Notes under the pieces: model-generated
The model's input: the letters and a program-made list of their open reading frames with translations, nothing else
Told to the model about the DNA's origin: nothing
Database searches by the model: none
Shown: positions 2,987 through 10,000 of the stretch, one piece after another
Numbering within the stretch: the stretch's first letter is position 1
Layout of the letters: each line of letters starts with the position of its first letter
Translations under genes and position numbers: made by a program
Assembly: GCF_020217185.1 (NCBI RefSeq)
Contig: NZ_JAIWNX010000056.1
Location: 1 to 10,000, forward strand
Length of the DNA stretch: 10,000 nt
From: Asticcacaulis sp.
GTDB taxonomy: Bacteria > Pseudomonadota > Alphaproteobacteria > Caulobacterales > Caulobacteraceae
Direction: 5' to 3'

Positions 2987-3061
2987 CTAGTGTCCTGAAT
3001 CTGAAATTCGCATGTGCTTGATATCGCTCTCTGGCGAATTTCAGATTCAATAGGACACTAG
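2987..3061. repeat. Palindromic intergenic repeat, copy 1 (with GANTC sites in its arms)
   Basis: This 75-base element is bounded by CTAG on both sides. The left arm (2987-3011) pairs perfectly with the right arm (3034-3061) over 25 bp, except for a 3-base bulge (AAT, 3049-3051) on the right. The inner stem is GAATCTGAAATTCGC (2997-3011) with GCGAATTTCAGATTC (3034-3048). The loop is 22 bases and contains GATATC. Each arm carries a GANTC sequence (GAATC 2997-3001, GATTC 3044-3048), the CcrM methylation target in Caulobacterales. Copy 2 lies 13 bases away in the opposite orientation. Intergenic palindromic repeats associated with GANTC sites have been described in Caulobacter; assigning this element to that family is my inference. 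Confidence 0.9.
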
Positions 3062-3074
3062 CAAATTATTGTAA

Positions 3075-3151
3075 CTCGTATCGTTTTCGAATTTGAAGTT
3101 CGCCCGGCTCTCGATATCAAAATGAAGCGAACTTCAAATTCACGATACTAG
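3075..3151. repeat. Palindromic intergenic repeat, copy 2 (inverted, GANTC lost)
   Basis: This 77-base element has the same architecture as the repeat at 2987-3061, in reverse orientation. The inner 15-bp stem is GAATTTGAAGTTCGC (3089-3103) with GCGAACTTCAAATTC (3127-3141). The outer stem is CTCGTATCG (3075-3083) with CGATACTAG (3143-3151), one mismatch. The 23-base loop again contains CGATATCAA. Compared with copy 1 the inner stem differs at two positions, and both are compensated on the opposite arm. One of them turns GAATC into GAATT, so this copy has no GANTC site. No protein is encoded. Confidence 0.88.
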
Positions 3152-3288: not shown

Positions 3289-4152
3289 CTAAATCCCACC
3301 CAGACGCCCGGTGCGTTTTTCATTGAGCAGGCTGATGATCGAAGCCGAGGTTTCTTCGACCGAGCGGCGGGTGACGTCGATCACCGGCCAGCCCTTGCGT
3401 TCAAACAGACGCCGGGCAGCGATGATTTCTTCACGCACGGCTTCGGCGTCGGTATAGGAAGTGGGCCGCTCATCCCCGGCGGTGGTATAGGCCAGAACGC
3501 GGGCCTTGCGGATCTGTATCAGGCGATCGGGTGAAGCGATGAGGCCGACGATCAGCGGCTCGCTCAGTTCGTCCAGTTCCGGCGGCAGGTCACGACCGGG
3601 GACGAGGGGGATATTGGCGGCCTTATAGCCCCGGTGGGCCAGATAGATGCAGGTCGGCGTCTTTGAGGTGCGCGACACACCGATCAGGATAATTTCGGCC
3701 TGACGCAGCTTGTCGGCCAGAGCGCCGTCATCGTGGGCAATGGCGTAGTTGAGCGCTTCGATGCGGTCGAAATAGTCGCTGTCGAGATTGTGCTGCGCGC
3801 CGGATTTTTTGGAAAATTCGGCGGCCCCCAGATAGCGCGAATAGGCCAGAACCACCGAATCGAGTACGCCGATGGTGGGGATGTCGCGCTCACGGCAGAA
3901 GGTTTCGAGCTTTTGCCGCAGTTCGGCATCGACCAGGGTGTGCAGAACAATGCCCGGATAGGACTCGATCTCGGTCAGGGCGCGATCCATCTGCTTGTCC
4001 GAACGGATCAGCACATAGATGTGTTCGATGGGGAAGATACCTTCGAAGCGCGCCGCGGCCGCCTTGGCCAGAGCATTGAGGGTTTCACCGGTGGAGTCGG
4101 ACACCAGATGAACGTGAAAATGGATACCGATTTTCGCGCCGGATGTAGTCAT
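3289..4152 (-). CDS. ppsR: Pyruvate,phosphate dikinase / PEP synthase regulatory protein (DUF299 kinase-phosphorylase)
   Basis: This family controls PPDK or PEP synthase by ADP-dependent phosphorylation of a threonine next to the catalytic histidine, and by phosphate-dependent removal of that phosphate. It sets carbon flow between pyruvate and PEP. The 287-residue product has SDSTGETL at 18-25, YFDRIEALNYAIAHDDG at 127-143, the characteristic P-loop GVSRTSKT at 158-165, and VIDVTRRSVEETSASI at 257-272 near the C-terminus. I chose the ATG at 4152-4150, which gives a normal family length with the conserved HFHVHLVSDSTGET close to the N-terminus. An in-frame ATG at 4284 would add 44 non-conserved residues encoded by origin DNA. 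In the Caulobacter literature the ortholog, RP001, marks one border of the chromosomal origin, and here too it diverges from hemE across that region. Which of the two enzymes it targets cannot be told from this window. Confidence 0.93.
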   Translation of the reverse strand: MTTSGAKIGIHFHVHLVSDSTGETLNALAKAAAARFEGIFPIEHIYVLIRSDKQMDRALTEIESYPGIVLHTLVDAELRQKLETFCRERDIPTIGVLDSVVLAYSRYLGAAEFSKKSGAQHNLDSDYFDRIEALNYAIAHDDGALADKLRQAEIILIGVSRTSKTPTCIYLAHRGYKAANIPLVPGRDLPPELDELSEPLIVGLIASPDRLIQIRKARVLAYTTAGDERPTSYTDAEAVREEIIAARRLFERKGWPVIDVTRRSVEETSASIISLLNEKRTGRLGGI

Positions 4153-4207
4153 GAAATTTATCTGTGCACGCTTTCTGGGGAAAAACGGGGGAAGATTTGC
4201 GTCTCTA

Positions 4208-4216
4208 TCGGGATAA
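4208..4216 (-). other. Candidate weak DnaA box (TTATCCCGA, minus strand)
   Basis: The minus strand reads TTATCCCGA, matching 7 of 9 positions of the TTATCCACA consensus. The same 8-mer, TTATCCCG, recurs on the plus strand at 4420-4427. The repetition within one origin suggests a lineage-specific weak box, but a chance match is possible. Confidence 0.4.
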
Positions 4217-4249
4217 ACCTTCGCCTTCGCCGTGCCAAGCCGCCAAGCC

Positions 4250-4295
4250 GGGGAAAAGGTGAAAAACCGGGCGTATTCGGTCACCGGTTTTCCCC
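4250..4295. repeat. Origin dyad with two competing pairings
   Basis: GGGGAAAA (4250-4257) pairs with TTTTCCCC (4288-4295), extended inward by GGTGA (4258-4262) with TCACC (4281-4285). This makes a 13-bp stem with a 2-base bulge and an 18-base loop. The alternative pairing of AAAACCGG (4263-4270) with CCGGTTTT (4284-4291) uses the same right-hand bases, so the two cannot form together. The dyad lies within the origin and 98-143 bases upstream of the ppsR start. It could be an origin structure or a leader fold in a ppsR transcript. Confidence 0.7.
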
Positions 4296-4342
4296 AATCA
4301 CGGGCATCGGTGACTCTTTTGTGACGGCTTTGTGTGTAAATC

Positions 4343-4357
4343 TTAACAAAAAATTAA
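4343..4357. promoter_or_regulatory. CtrA-binding site 1 (TTAA-N7-TTAA)
   Basis: TTAA (4343-4346), seven bases (CAAAAAA), then TTAA (4354-4357) followed by C. This is a perfect full CtrA site of the kind that represses initiation at the Caulobacter origin. Confidence 0.88.
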
Positions 4358-4383
4358 CCGTGTATGGCCGCCACTCTCAGTCG

Positions 4384-4398
4384 TTAGGATTTTCTTAA
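4384..4398. promoter_or_regulatory. CtrA-binding site 2 (TTAG-N7-TTAA)
   Basis: TTAG (4384-4387), seven bases, then TTAA (4395-4398). This is the common GTTAG-type left half. It shares the 10-base direct repeat GTTAGGATTT with site 3, which starts 21 bases downstream. Confidence 0.83.
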
Positions 4399-4404
4399 TC
4401 AGTG

Positions 4405-4419
4405 TTAGGATTTGGTTAA
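4405..4419. promoter_or_regulatory. CtrA-binding site 3 (TTAG-N7-TTAA)
   Basis: TTAG (4405-4408), seven bases, then TTAA (4416-4419). Its right edge abuts the TTATCCCGG candidate DnaA box (4420-4428), an arrangement that would let CtrA and DnaA exclude each other. Confidence 0.83.
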
Positions 4420-4428
4420 TTATCCCGG
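4420..4428 (+). other. Candidate weak DnaA box (TTATCCCGG) between a CtrA site and a GANTC site
   Basis: TTATCCCGG matches 7 of 9 positions of TTATCCACA. It directly follows CtrA site 3, and its last base is the first base of the GATTC methylation site at 4428-4432, so three cell-cycle signals touch within 28 bases. Binding by DnaA is inferred only from similarity and position. Confidence 0.42.
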
Positions 4429-4449
4429 ATTCCCACAGGCTGTGAAAGA

Positions 4450-4464
4450 TTAAAAATTCATTAA
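4450..4464. promoter_or_regulatory. CtrA-binding site 4 (TTAA-N7-TTAA)
   Basis: TTAA (4450-4453), seven bases (AAATTCA), then TTAA (4461-4464) followed by C. This is a perfect full site, the nearest of the four to hemE. In Caulobacter, CtrA at such sites also represses the strong hemE promoter inside the origin. Confidence 0.86.
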
Positions 4465-4480
4465 CGTCGCTCTGTGCAAA

Positions 4481-4505
4481 GGCCGGGAAAACGGCCATCA
4501 TTTTT
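4481..4505 (+). terminator. Terminator-like hairpin in the hemE leader
   Basis: GGCCG (4481-4485) pairs with CGGCC (4492-4496) around a 6-base loop, followed by ATCA and five T residues (4501-4505). If transcription of hemE starts upstream of this point, it could act as an attenuator, or it could stop stray transcription across the origin. The 5-bp stem and the gap before the T-run make it weak. Confidence 0.4.
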
Positions 4506-4616
4506 CCCCGATGCGACGTTTTTGCGCAGCATCCACGGCCTAACTACCCCTTCTATCTTTCTAAAAATCTTTTAGAGGGATTGAGGGAATACCGTCGGAA
4601 GCCTATGGATTGACTC

Positions 4617-5642
4617 ATGACCTCGCACACGCCATCCATAGTCTCGGTCCTTCAGGGACAGACGTTGAAAACGCCGCCCGTCTGGTTCATGCGTCAGGCT
4701 GGTCGCCATCTGCCGGAATACCGTGAGCTTCGGGCGACGACGGCGGATTTTCTCAGCTTTTGCCTAAACCCGGAAAAGGCCGCCGAAGCGACGCTGCAGC
4801 CGGTACGTCGCTACGGCATGGACGGAGCCATCCTGTTTTCCGATATTCTGGTTATCCCCATGGCCTTGGGTCAGGACGTTCGCTTTGAAGCGGGTGAGGG
4901 GCCTGTTCTTGGGGACTTACCCTCTGTAGCGCGGATGGCTGATCTGGCTGGCTCGGCGGGAGAAGCCTTGAAGGCCGTGGGTGAGACCCTGAAAATCCTG
5001 CGTTCGGAATTGCCGAAAGAGGTGACGCTTCTGGGATTCTGTGGCGGGCCGTGGACGGTGATGACCTATATGCTCAATGGGCGCAAAGCCCATGACCGCT
5101 CACTGATCCGCGCCTTTGTTTATGAGCAGCCGCAACTGGTGGCGCAGGTGATGGACGTGGTCATTGAGGCTTCAGCGCAGTATCTGAAGATGCAGGCCGA
5201 TTGCGGCGCGCAGGTCCTCAAAATCTTCGAAAGCTGGGCCGAAGGCTTCCCCGATCCCTTGTTTGATCAACTGGTTATCGAACCCCATCAAAGGCTGGTG
5301 CGGCGTGTGCGCGAACTGGGGATCACCCTGCCCATTATCGGCTTTCCGCGCGGGGCCGAGGCACGCTGTCTCGACTATGCCGATCAGGTCGAGGTCCAGG
5401 GTATGGCGCTGGGGACCGCCACACCTTTGAAACTGGGGCAGGCGATCCAGAAAAAATTGCCGATACAGGGGGCGCTCGATCCGGTCGTTCTGCGTTCCGG
5501 TGGCGCCGCGCTGGACGATATGGTGCTGAAAATGAAATCCGCCTGGGGGCAGGGGCCGTATATTTTTAATCTGGGGCATGGCATCTTTCCCGACACCCCC
5601 ATCGCTCATGTCGAGCGGACGCTACATCTCATAAGAAGCTGA
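4617..5642 (+). CDS. hemE: Uroporphyrinogen III decarboxylase
   Basis: HemE removes the four acetate carboxyl groups of uroporphyrinogen III to give coproporphyrinogen III in haem synthesis. It is a cytosolic TIM-barrel enzyme. The 341-residue product is full length. It has PPVWFMRQAGR at 20-30 with the propionate-binding Arg26 and Arg30, FSDILVIP with catalytic Asp76, GFCGGPWTVMTYML at 140-153 with Tyr151, FESWAEGF at 204-211, GFPRGA at 242-247, and the C-terminal GHGIFPDTP with His321. The usual Tyr after MRQAGR is His31 here. The ATG at 4617 follows a GACTC methylation site directly and has no strong ribosome-binding site. The TGA stop shares one base with the hemH ATG (TGATG). Its promoter must lie in the origin, so its expression is likely tied to CtrA and replication timing, as in Caulobacter. 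Confidence 0.97.
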   Translation: MTSHTPSIVSVLQGQTLKTPPVWFMRQAGRHLPEYRELRATTADFLSFCLNPEKAAEATLQPVRRYGMDGAILFSDILVIPMALGQDVRFEAGEGPVLGDLPSVARMADLAGSAGEALKAVGETLKILRSELPKEVTLLGFCGGPWTVMTYMLNGRKAHDRSLIRAFVYEQPQLVAQVMDVVIEASAQYLKMQADCGAQVLKIFESWAEGFPDPLFDQLVIEPHQRLVRRVRELGITLPIIGFPRGAEARCLDYADQVEVQGMALGTATPLKLGQAIQKKLPIQGALDPVVLRSGGAALDDMVLKMKSAWGQGPYIFNLGHGIFPDTPIAHVERTLHLIRS

Positions 5643-9126: not shown

Positions 9127-10000
9127 GTGTTTCACGTGAAACAGACGATTTTCGCCTTGGCCTCGGCGCAAGGTCGGGCCGGGGTGTCGGTCATCCGCGT
9201 CTCCGGGCCTCAAGCCGCACACGTGGTTGAGGCCTTGCTGGGGCGCTTGCCGCGTCCACGCTATGCGACGCTCGGTCATCTGCGCTATGACGGCGAGCTG
9301 ATAGATCAGGGTCTGGTCCTGTGGTTCAAGGGGCCGAACAGTTTTACCGGCGAAGACTGCGCTGAATTTCATATCCACGGCTCACGCGCGGTACTCGAAC
9401 GCCTCTATGCGGTGTTTCGCGCCGAGGGCCTGCGTCACGCCGAGCCGGGTGAGTTTTCACGGCGGGCCTTTGAAAATGGCAAGCTCGACCTGACTCAGGC
9501 CGAGGCCATTTCCGATCTGGTTGAGGCCGAGTCCGAGGCGCAGCGACGACAAGCCCTGATGCAGCTCGAAGGTGGTTTCCGTGATCGCTATGCCCAATGG
9601 CGCGATGCGCTGATCCGTATTCTGGCCCATATCGAAGCCATCGTCGATTTCCCGGATGAGGATATTCCGGAACACCTCAGCGAACGCATTATTGCGGATA
9701 TCATCGCGCTGAAGACTGAGGTCGGGGCGGCGATCACGGATGCGAGACGCGGGCAACAAATCCGCGAAGGCTATCGCATCGCCATTATGGGCAAGCCCAA
9801 TGCCGGCAAGTCGAGCCTGTTTAACGCCTTGCTGCAAACCGACGCGGCCATCGTCACACCGATCGCTGGCACGACGCGCGATGTGATTGAATCTCCCATT
9901 CGTATCGGACCCTATGCCGCCTTGATCTATGACACGGCAGGCCTGCGCGAAACCGAGGATGTGGTGGAGTCCGAAGGTATCCGCCGGGCGAAGGCGAGGG
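9127..10000 (+). CDS. mnmE: tRNA uridine-5-carboxymethylaminomethyl modification GTPase MnmE (5' part)
   Basis: With MnmG, MnmE makes the cmnm5 modification of the wobble uridine in certain tRNAs. The 291 codons present cover the N-terminal tetrahydrofolate-binding domain (TIFALASAQGRAGVSVIRVSGP near the start, GEDCAEFHIHGS at 75-86, HAEPGEFSRRAFENGKLDLTQAEA at 104-127), the start of the helical domain, and the G domain with G1 GKPNAGKSS at 222-230, G2 AGTTRD at 247-252 and G3 DTAG at 269-272. The rest, including G4 and the C-terminal Cys, lies beyond the window. There are two in-frame GTG starts, 9127 and 9136. The first is closer to a possible ribosome-binding site, while the second gives an N-terminus more like relatives. 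The parS palindrome at 9128-9143 lies over both. In Caulobacter the next genes are mnmG, rsmG, parA and parB. Confidence 0.95.
   Translation, partial: MFHVKQTIFALASAQGRAGVSVIRVSGPQAAHVVEALLGRLPRPRYATLGHLRYDGELIDQGLVLWFKGPNSFTGEDCAEFHIHGSRAVLERLYAVFRAEGLRHAEPGEFSRRAFENGKLDLTQAEAISDLVEAESEAQRRQALMQLEGGFRDRYAQWRDALIRILAHIEAIVDFPDEDIPEHLSERIIADIIALKTEVGAAITDARRGQQIREGYRIAIMGKPNAGKSSLFNALLQTDAAIVTPIAGTTRDVIESPIRIGPYAALIYDTAGLRETEDVVESEGIRRAKAR
9128..9143. other. parS centromere site (ParB-binding palindrome)
   Basis: TGTTTCACGTGAAACA is a perfect 16-bp palindrome identical to the bacterial parS consensus. ParB binds such sites, spreads, and lets ParA move the origin region to the new pole. It is placed as expected, about 4.7 kb from the centre of the proposed origin and probably a few kilobases from parAB. 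It overlaps the mnmE start, so its bases also encode the Phe-His-Val-Lys-Gln stretch. No second parS was found in the window. Confidence 0.95.

Follow-up and report, generated by a model that had tools for sequence, protein, structure and literature searches.

We found that the intergenic region at positions 4154–4616 of the window (the whole stretch analysed, 10,000 nucleotides, which is all of contig 266 of a 3.44 Mb genome in 320 contigs) very probably serves as the origin of chromosome replication in this Asticcacaulis species, and that it is of the Cori type. As a whole, the data are likely to be best explained by a Cori-type origin at which a block of CtrA on three of four predicted sites (sites 1–3) excludes DnaA. 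A Cori-type origin with a CtrA array had been put forward in the original prediction; it is supported by the flanking genes, by parS and ctrA in the same genome, by skew minima and parB in relatives, and by the sites themselves and the conservation of their spacing. The features referred to below are as follows.

3289–4153, − strand, COG1806/DUF299 gene (PPDK/PEPS regulator), left flank; NF003742, 319 bits, cut-off 225
4154–4616, candidate intergenic origin region between COG1806/DUF299 and hemE; GC 0.47
4331–4339, − strand, weak DnaA-box-like 9-mer, TTACACACA, 2 mismatches
4343–4357, + strand, predicted CtrA site 1, TTAACAAAAAATTAA, TTAA-N7-TTAA; full in 25 of 25 genomes
4384–4398, + strand, predicted CtrA site 2, TTAGGATTTTCTTAA, TTAG-N7-TTAA in the window; 24 of 25 genomes keep seven or more of the eight letters
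4405–4419, + strand, predicted CtrA site 3, TTAGGATTTGGTTAA, TTAG-N7-TTAA in the window; 23 of 25 genomes keep seven or more of the eight letters
4420–4425, + strand, TTATCC, the first six letters of a DnaA box; directly after site 3 in 24 of 25 genomes
4434–4439, + strand, CACAGG, conserved in position: all 25 genomes have it 14 bp past the first base of TTATCC
4450–4464, + strand, predicted CtrA site 4, TTAAAAATTCATTAA, TTAA-N7-TTAA
4473–4480, + strand, TGTGCAAA; this place reads TGTGAAAAA in 18 of 25 genomes, weakly DnaA-box-like on the − strand
4512–4517, + strand, TGCGAC, conserved element from the genus comparison
4551–4576, candidate unwinding region, an AT-rich stretch before hemE, proposed from the genus comparison
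4617–5642, + strand, hemE, right flank of the Cori type; TIGR01464, 347 bits, cut-off 303
9128–9143, perfect palindromic parS site, TGTTTCACGTGAAACA, where the mnmE reading frame begins; 4.7 kb from the array

The flanking genes are those between which the C. crescentus Cori sits, according to passages of PMC1914354. For the COG1806/DUF299 gene we took as start the ATG that ends at 4153; the reading frame as listed extends to a GTG at 4284, and the NF003742 match starts at residue 55 of this longer frame. To the right of the array the gene order is hemE, hemH, a hemJ-like gene (117 bits, below its cut-off of 138), rho and then mnmE, the last named from its relative in genome G005. A search of 61 genomes recovered hemE in every one, and 30 of the neighbourhoods were retrieved. 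GC content falls to 0.41 over 4301–4480, compared with 0.50–0.63 in the 500-base steps of the window. The genome encodes CtrA (NF045991, 408 bits against a cut-off of 350). The parS site was called as perfect against the consensus that we assume for this element, and it overlaps the opening codons of the mnmE frame. In G005, parB lies ∼9.6 kb from the array and the neighbourhood holds three perfect parS sites; its presumed parA reading frame was matched by no model at an E-value of 1e-40.

Cumulative-skew minima were placed in local stretches of relatives, not in whole chromosomes. The local minimum was 381 bp from the array in G012 (a joined 80-kb stretch), 1,574 bp in G013 (140 kb) and 12,184 bp in G010 (160 kb). 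The sampled GC skew of G012 was −0.04 at 1.00–1.02 Mb and +0.03 at 1.06–1.08 Mb, with hemE at 1.04 Mb. In G005 the sampled skew was noisy near the locus, with a flip that is smeared over 1.69–1.94 Mb, and the 19.9-kb stretch ends too near the array to place a minimum. An origin at dnaA, which lies about 100 kb (G012), 156 kb (G005) or 155 kb (G010) from hemE, was considered and was not supported in G012 or G010: the G012 sample around dnaA stays negative with no change of sign, and the G010 local minimum is 12 kb from the array, in a stretch that excludes dnaA.

Conservation, the hemE tree, the DnaA-like box and the repeat described below were all compared across 25 genomes of the genus, this one included. 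Each contained between 3 and 6 TTAA-N7-TTAA sites at one mismatch or fewer, and sites 1–3 were recognisable in place in every one. Sites 1 and 2 are 41 bp apart in nine genomes and 42 bp apart in 16, and sites 2 and 3 are 21 bp apart in all 25. No genome has a full site 3, the left half being imperfect in each. The pattern of two sites at 21 bp was found in 29 of 149 family genomes, against two of 149 for a reversed control. In that draw 19 of 23 Asticcacaulis genomes had it (18 at hemE); outside the genus it was seen in one g8 genome, at hemE, and in nine genomes of g32, six of them beside hemE. We presume g32 to be Caulobacter, partly from its five-site loci (L144, L146 and L149). This genome has a single occurrence of the pair.

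The start-to-start distances between sites 1–4 are 41, 21 and 45 bases, in agreement with the original prediction, which had gone on to propose that the four sites are nearly in helical phase, most CtrA dimers facing the same side. At 10.5 bp per turn these distances amount to 3.90, 2.00 and 4.29 turns, so only sites 1–3 are in phase. These lie within 34 degrees of each other, and the proposal holds for them; site 4 is about 100 degrees off sites 2–3, is also 6 bp closer or missing in other clades, and its place on the same face is not supported. Random spacings would be equally good with a probability of 0.07 for all three and of 0.02 for the first two.

Whether the fixed spacing of sites 1–3 reflects phasing of CtrA dimers at all is a matter on which we are nearly evenly divided, and we put the chance that it stems instead from common descent and overlapping sites of other proteins at somewhat under a half. 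In other genera, the spacings of adjacent sites were not significantly periodic (Rayleigh p about 0.17 over 17 genus-spacing pairs), which counts against helical phasing as a family-wide rule and is consistent with descent. Neighbouring segments with no CtrA sites are likewise constant in length: TGCGAC to TTCTATC measures 39 bp in all 25 genomes, and a fixed length is thus not peculiar to the CtrA spacers. Against an origin by descent and overlap, the spacer between sites 1 and 2 has a mean identity of only 44%, yet its length is 26 or 27 bp in every genome, a single step of 1 bp, whereas segments elsewhere vary by up to 13 bp.

The observation that sites 2 and 3 share the direct repeat GTTAGGATTT at a 21-base period was borne out, the two copies starting at 4383 and 4404. 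The suggestion that local duplication had made one of the two sites was not. Both places exist 21 bp apart in all 25 genomes, and only six close relatives have the near-identical repeat: over their first ten bases, the copies agree at ten positions in L001–L005, at nine in L006 and at four to seven in the other 19. The likeness of the repeats is therefore most simply a later one, acquired in the ancestor of the six.

Site 4 behaves differently from the triad. Its distance from site 3 is 45 bp in 14 of the 25 genomes and 39 bp in five; six lack it. In five of these six an additional site precedes site 1 by 40 bp, whereas none of the 19 genomes possessing site 4 has such an upstream site at one mismatch or fewer. 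On the hemE tree, the three states of site 4 together with the outgroup need three changes, the minimum possible, which indicates few events rather than many independent ones; support for the branch that unites the 45-bp genomes is weak (58/31). Moving site 4 by 6 bp turns its helical offset around, which speaks against its being in phase.

One possible, though rather doubtful, reading is that the origin switch was rebuilt in Asticcacaulis, with a rigid in-phase CtrA triad acting as one block over very weak DnaA boxes and an outer site that turns over, in place of a dispersed set of five CtrA sites with a good DnaA G-box. Site 4 would have been lost, a site 0 gained 40 bp upstream and site 4 regained 6 bp closer. 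Were this true, the number of sites would be roughly kept while their position was free. The locus offers a natural experiment on the arrangement of a cell-cycle repressor at an origin, telling which spacings are fixed and which are free, and how weak DnaA boxes may be under a strong overlying repressor.

No DnaA box with one mismatch or fewer was found in the window, nor in 14 of the 25 genus members (the window among them); the remaining 11 had such a match. Looser 9-mers (two mismatches or fewer) numbered 157 in the 420-bp regions of the genus, compared with 52.5 (largest 72) in mononucleotide shuffles, in which dinucleotides are not kept. The TGTG of the weak DnaA-like box begins 12 bp before site 1 in all 25 genomes. 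The missing boxes might have been explained by an altered contact segment in DnaA, but we rejected this: RPRQ and DIGRRFGGRDHTTVLHA, which we take to be the contact segments, are identical in the 12 proteins compared (nine of Asticcacaulis and three of g32), with differences in the residues beside them. The boxes thus look weak rather than re-coded. Neither of two strict IHF consensus patterns was matched in any of the 25 genus members; among the g32 control loci, only three of 13 had a match. GANTC (CcrM) sites occupied no single genus-wide place, the best place being common to 13 of 25 genomes, and the window had no Rfam match at gathering scores. CTA-rich words, CTAACTACC and CTACTACC, occur at 4540–4576 and in the same columns in relatives, just before the AT-rich stretch; we take them to be reminiscent of DnaA-trio elements.

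We propose that phosphorylated CtrA (CtrA∼P) would bind sites 1–3 as a rigid block, at 41/42 and 21 bp and near whole helical turns, joined by the variable outer site. Bound CtrA would cover or abut the weak DnaA boxes, TGTG...TAA before site 1 and TTATCC after site 3, and exclusion of DnaA would be expected at TGTGTGTAA and TTATCC. With CtrA over the weak boxes DnaA could not assemble, so replication would be off while CtrA is active, as in the swarmer type. Removal of CtrA would then permit cooperative binding of DnaA to the weak boxes and opening of the AT-rich stretch near hemE. CtrA occupancy, DnaA exclusion and the place of unwinding are parts of this scheme that we infer. At Cori, passages of PMC4468827 describe CtrA as excluding DnaA from weak boxes, and report that weakening all five CtrA sites only mildly perturbs the normal replication cycle of C. 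crescentus. The principle of CtrA control is established; what is new here is the rigid triad with its moving outer site, and cooperativity within the triad is again something that we infer.

It is improbable that the array serves chiefly as a promoter region through which CtrA controls hemE or the divergently transcribed COG1806 gene, with nearby origin activity independent of it. The sites do lie ∼150–275 bp upstream of hemE and between divergent genes, and activation of a promoter by CtrA at Cori is named as a possible mechanism in passages of PMC4468827. However, the skew minima fall within 0.4–1.6 kb in two genomes, and there are several sites with DnaA-like boxes at their edges instead of one site. 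The promoter and origin roles are not mutually exclusive. Our preferred account remains the Cori-type origin with a CtrA block on sites 1–3.

The four-site cluster itself was confirmed by a search of the 10 kb window for TTAA-N7-TTAA at one mismatch or fewer, which returned sites 1–4 and no others. The four had been described as full sites. This is correct for sites 1 and 4, the only two that read TTAA-N7-TTAA in full; sites 2 and 3 have TTAG as the left half, which also falls outside a looser CtrA rule, TTWW, given in passages of PMC1914354. The site count alone is not extreme, since 1.0 match was expected in the whole window and 2 of 200 shuffles reached four. What is unusual is the clustering and the restriction to TTAR half-sites, not the bare count. 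With this stricter pattern, four sites were reached in none of 5000 local dinucleotide shuffles of each of three regions. A chance cluster in AT-rich DNA is therefore a negligible prospect: GC is only 0.36 over 4343–4464 and four one-mismatch matches anywhere in the window do occasionally arise by shuffling, but the stricter sites do not reach four in shuffles of the same stretch and the positions of sites 1–3 are kept throughout the genus. Across the genome, TTAR-N7-TTAA gave 43 + 44 (87) strand-wise matches at 54 distinct places (counted by eye) and is not really enriched, a reversed-pattern control giving 43 + 38 (81). Nowhere else in the genome are there more than two such sites within 130 bp (counted by eye). 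A full TTAA-N7-TTAA is present at G000:C11:6796-6810, ∼100 bp beyond the part of the genome's own dnaA gene that encodes the DnaA C-terminal domain.

Comparison with hemE loci of other Caulobacteraceae showed that the triad spacing is genus-wide and that the layout differs from that of g32, the presumed Caulobacter. One locus (L145, where the contig ends inside the region) was left out, so that 34 of 35 other-genus loci and 13 of 14 g32 loci were used. None of the 34 had four sites within 122 bp. In the g32 loci L144, L146 and L149, five sites are spread over about 400 bp with spacings of 210, 48–49, 122 and 21 bp, and the 21-bp pair adjoins hemE; in Asticcacaulis three sites occupy 77 bp in mid-region. 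The remaining g32 loci have three to six sites with other spacings. All 13 scored g32 loci have a DnaA-box match at one mismatch or fewer, compared with 11 of 25 in Asticcacaulis and none in the window. In 11 of the 13 an exact TGATCCACA on the − strand starts 13 bp before the outermost CtrA-type site; this is nearly the geometry of the box at site 1 of Asticcacaulis (12 bp), whereas the window has no such sequence. A strict IHF match, seen in three g32 loci, is likewise missing from the window. With very similar DnaA DNA-binding domains and different layouts, the related genera would make swap experiments possible.

Going by passages of PMC1914354, PMC4468827 and PMC6399470, the C. crescentus Cori shares with the window the placement between COG1806 and hemE, TTAA-N7-TTAA CtrA sites (five in Cori), weak DnaA boxes near the CtrA sites (in the window, DnaA-like candidates) and an AT-rich region; parS is about 8 kb away there, compared with 4.7 kb here. 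The predicted origins of Rickettsia and Wolbachia, as described in passages of PMC1914354, also lie beside hemE and have CtrA-type sites, but by that account they belong to AT-richer genomes and carry from zero to seven sites. Marine Caulobacter origins share the use of CtrA, which probably evolved independently there, according to passages of PMC4468827. Among named hemE loci, mostly of other Alphaproteobacteria, 75 of 80 have zero to two CtrA-type sites in the 500 bp upstream. Five occur in this interval in A. tiandongensis (L040), and three each in L067 and L073. Two Cohaesibacter loci, which are outside the Caulobacterales, have five (L089) and three (L090) upstream of hemE. The primary comparison of Caulobacter origins is reportedly that of Shaheen et al. 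2009. Among papers listed in literature searches for Asticcacaulis, none treats this origin, judged by title and the opening of the abstract; subscription journals fall mostly outside this body of text, which makes it weak evidence of absence.

Two repeats lie elsewhere in the window. Between maf and the COG1806 gene, at 2987–3151, there is a palindromic MITE-like element of ∼165 bp; the genome holds 10 near-full-length copies at 86–100% identity, including that of the window, and partial ones besides. After dnaQ, at 53–179, an inverted repeat, CACGAAAAGCACGAA, encloses an 89-bp loop; the rest of the genome holds 12 matches to it, all weaker or partial.
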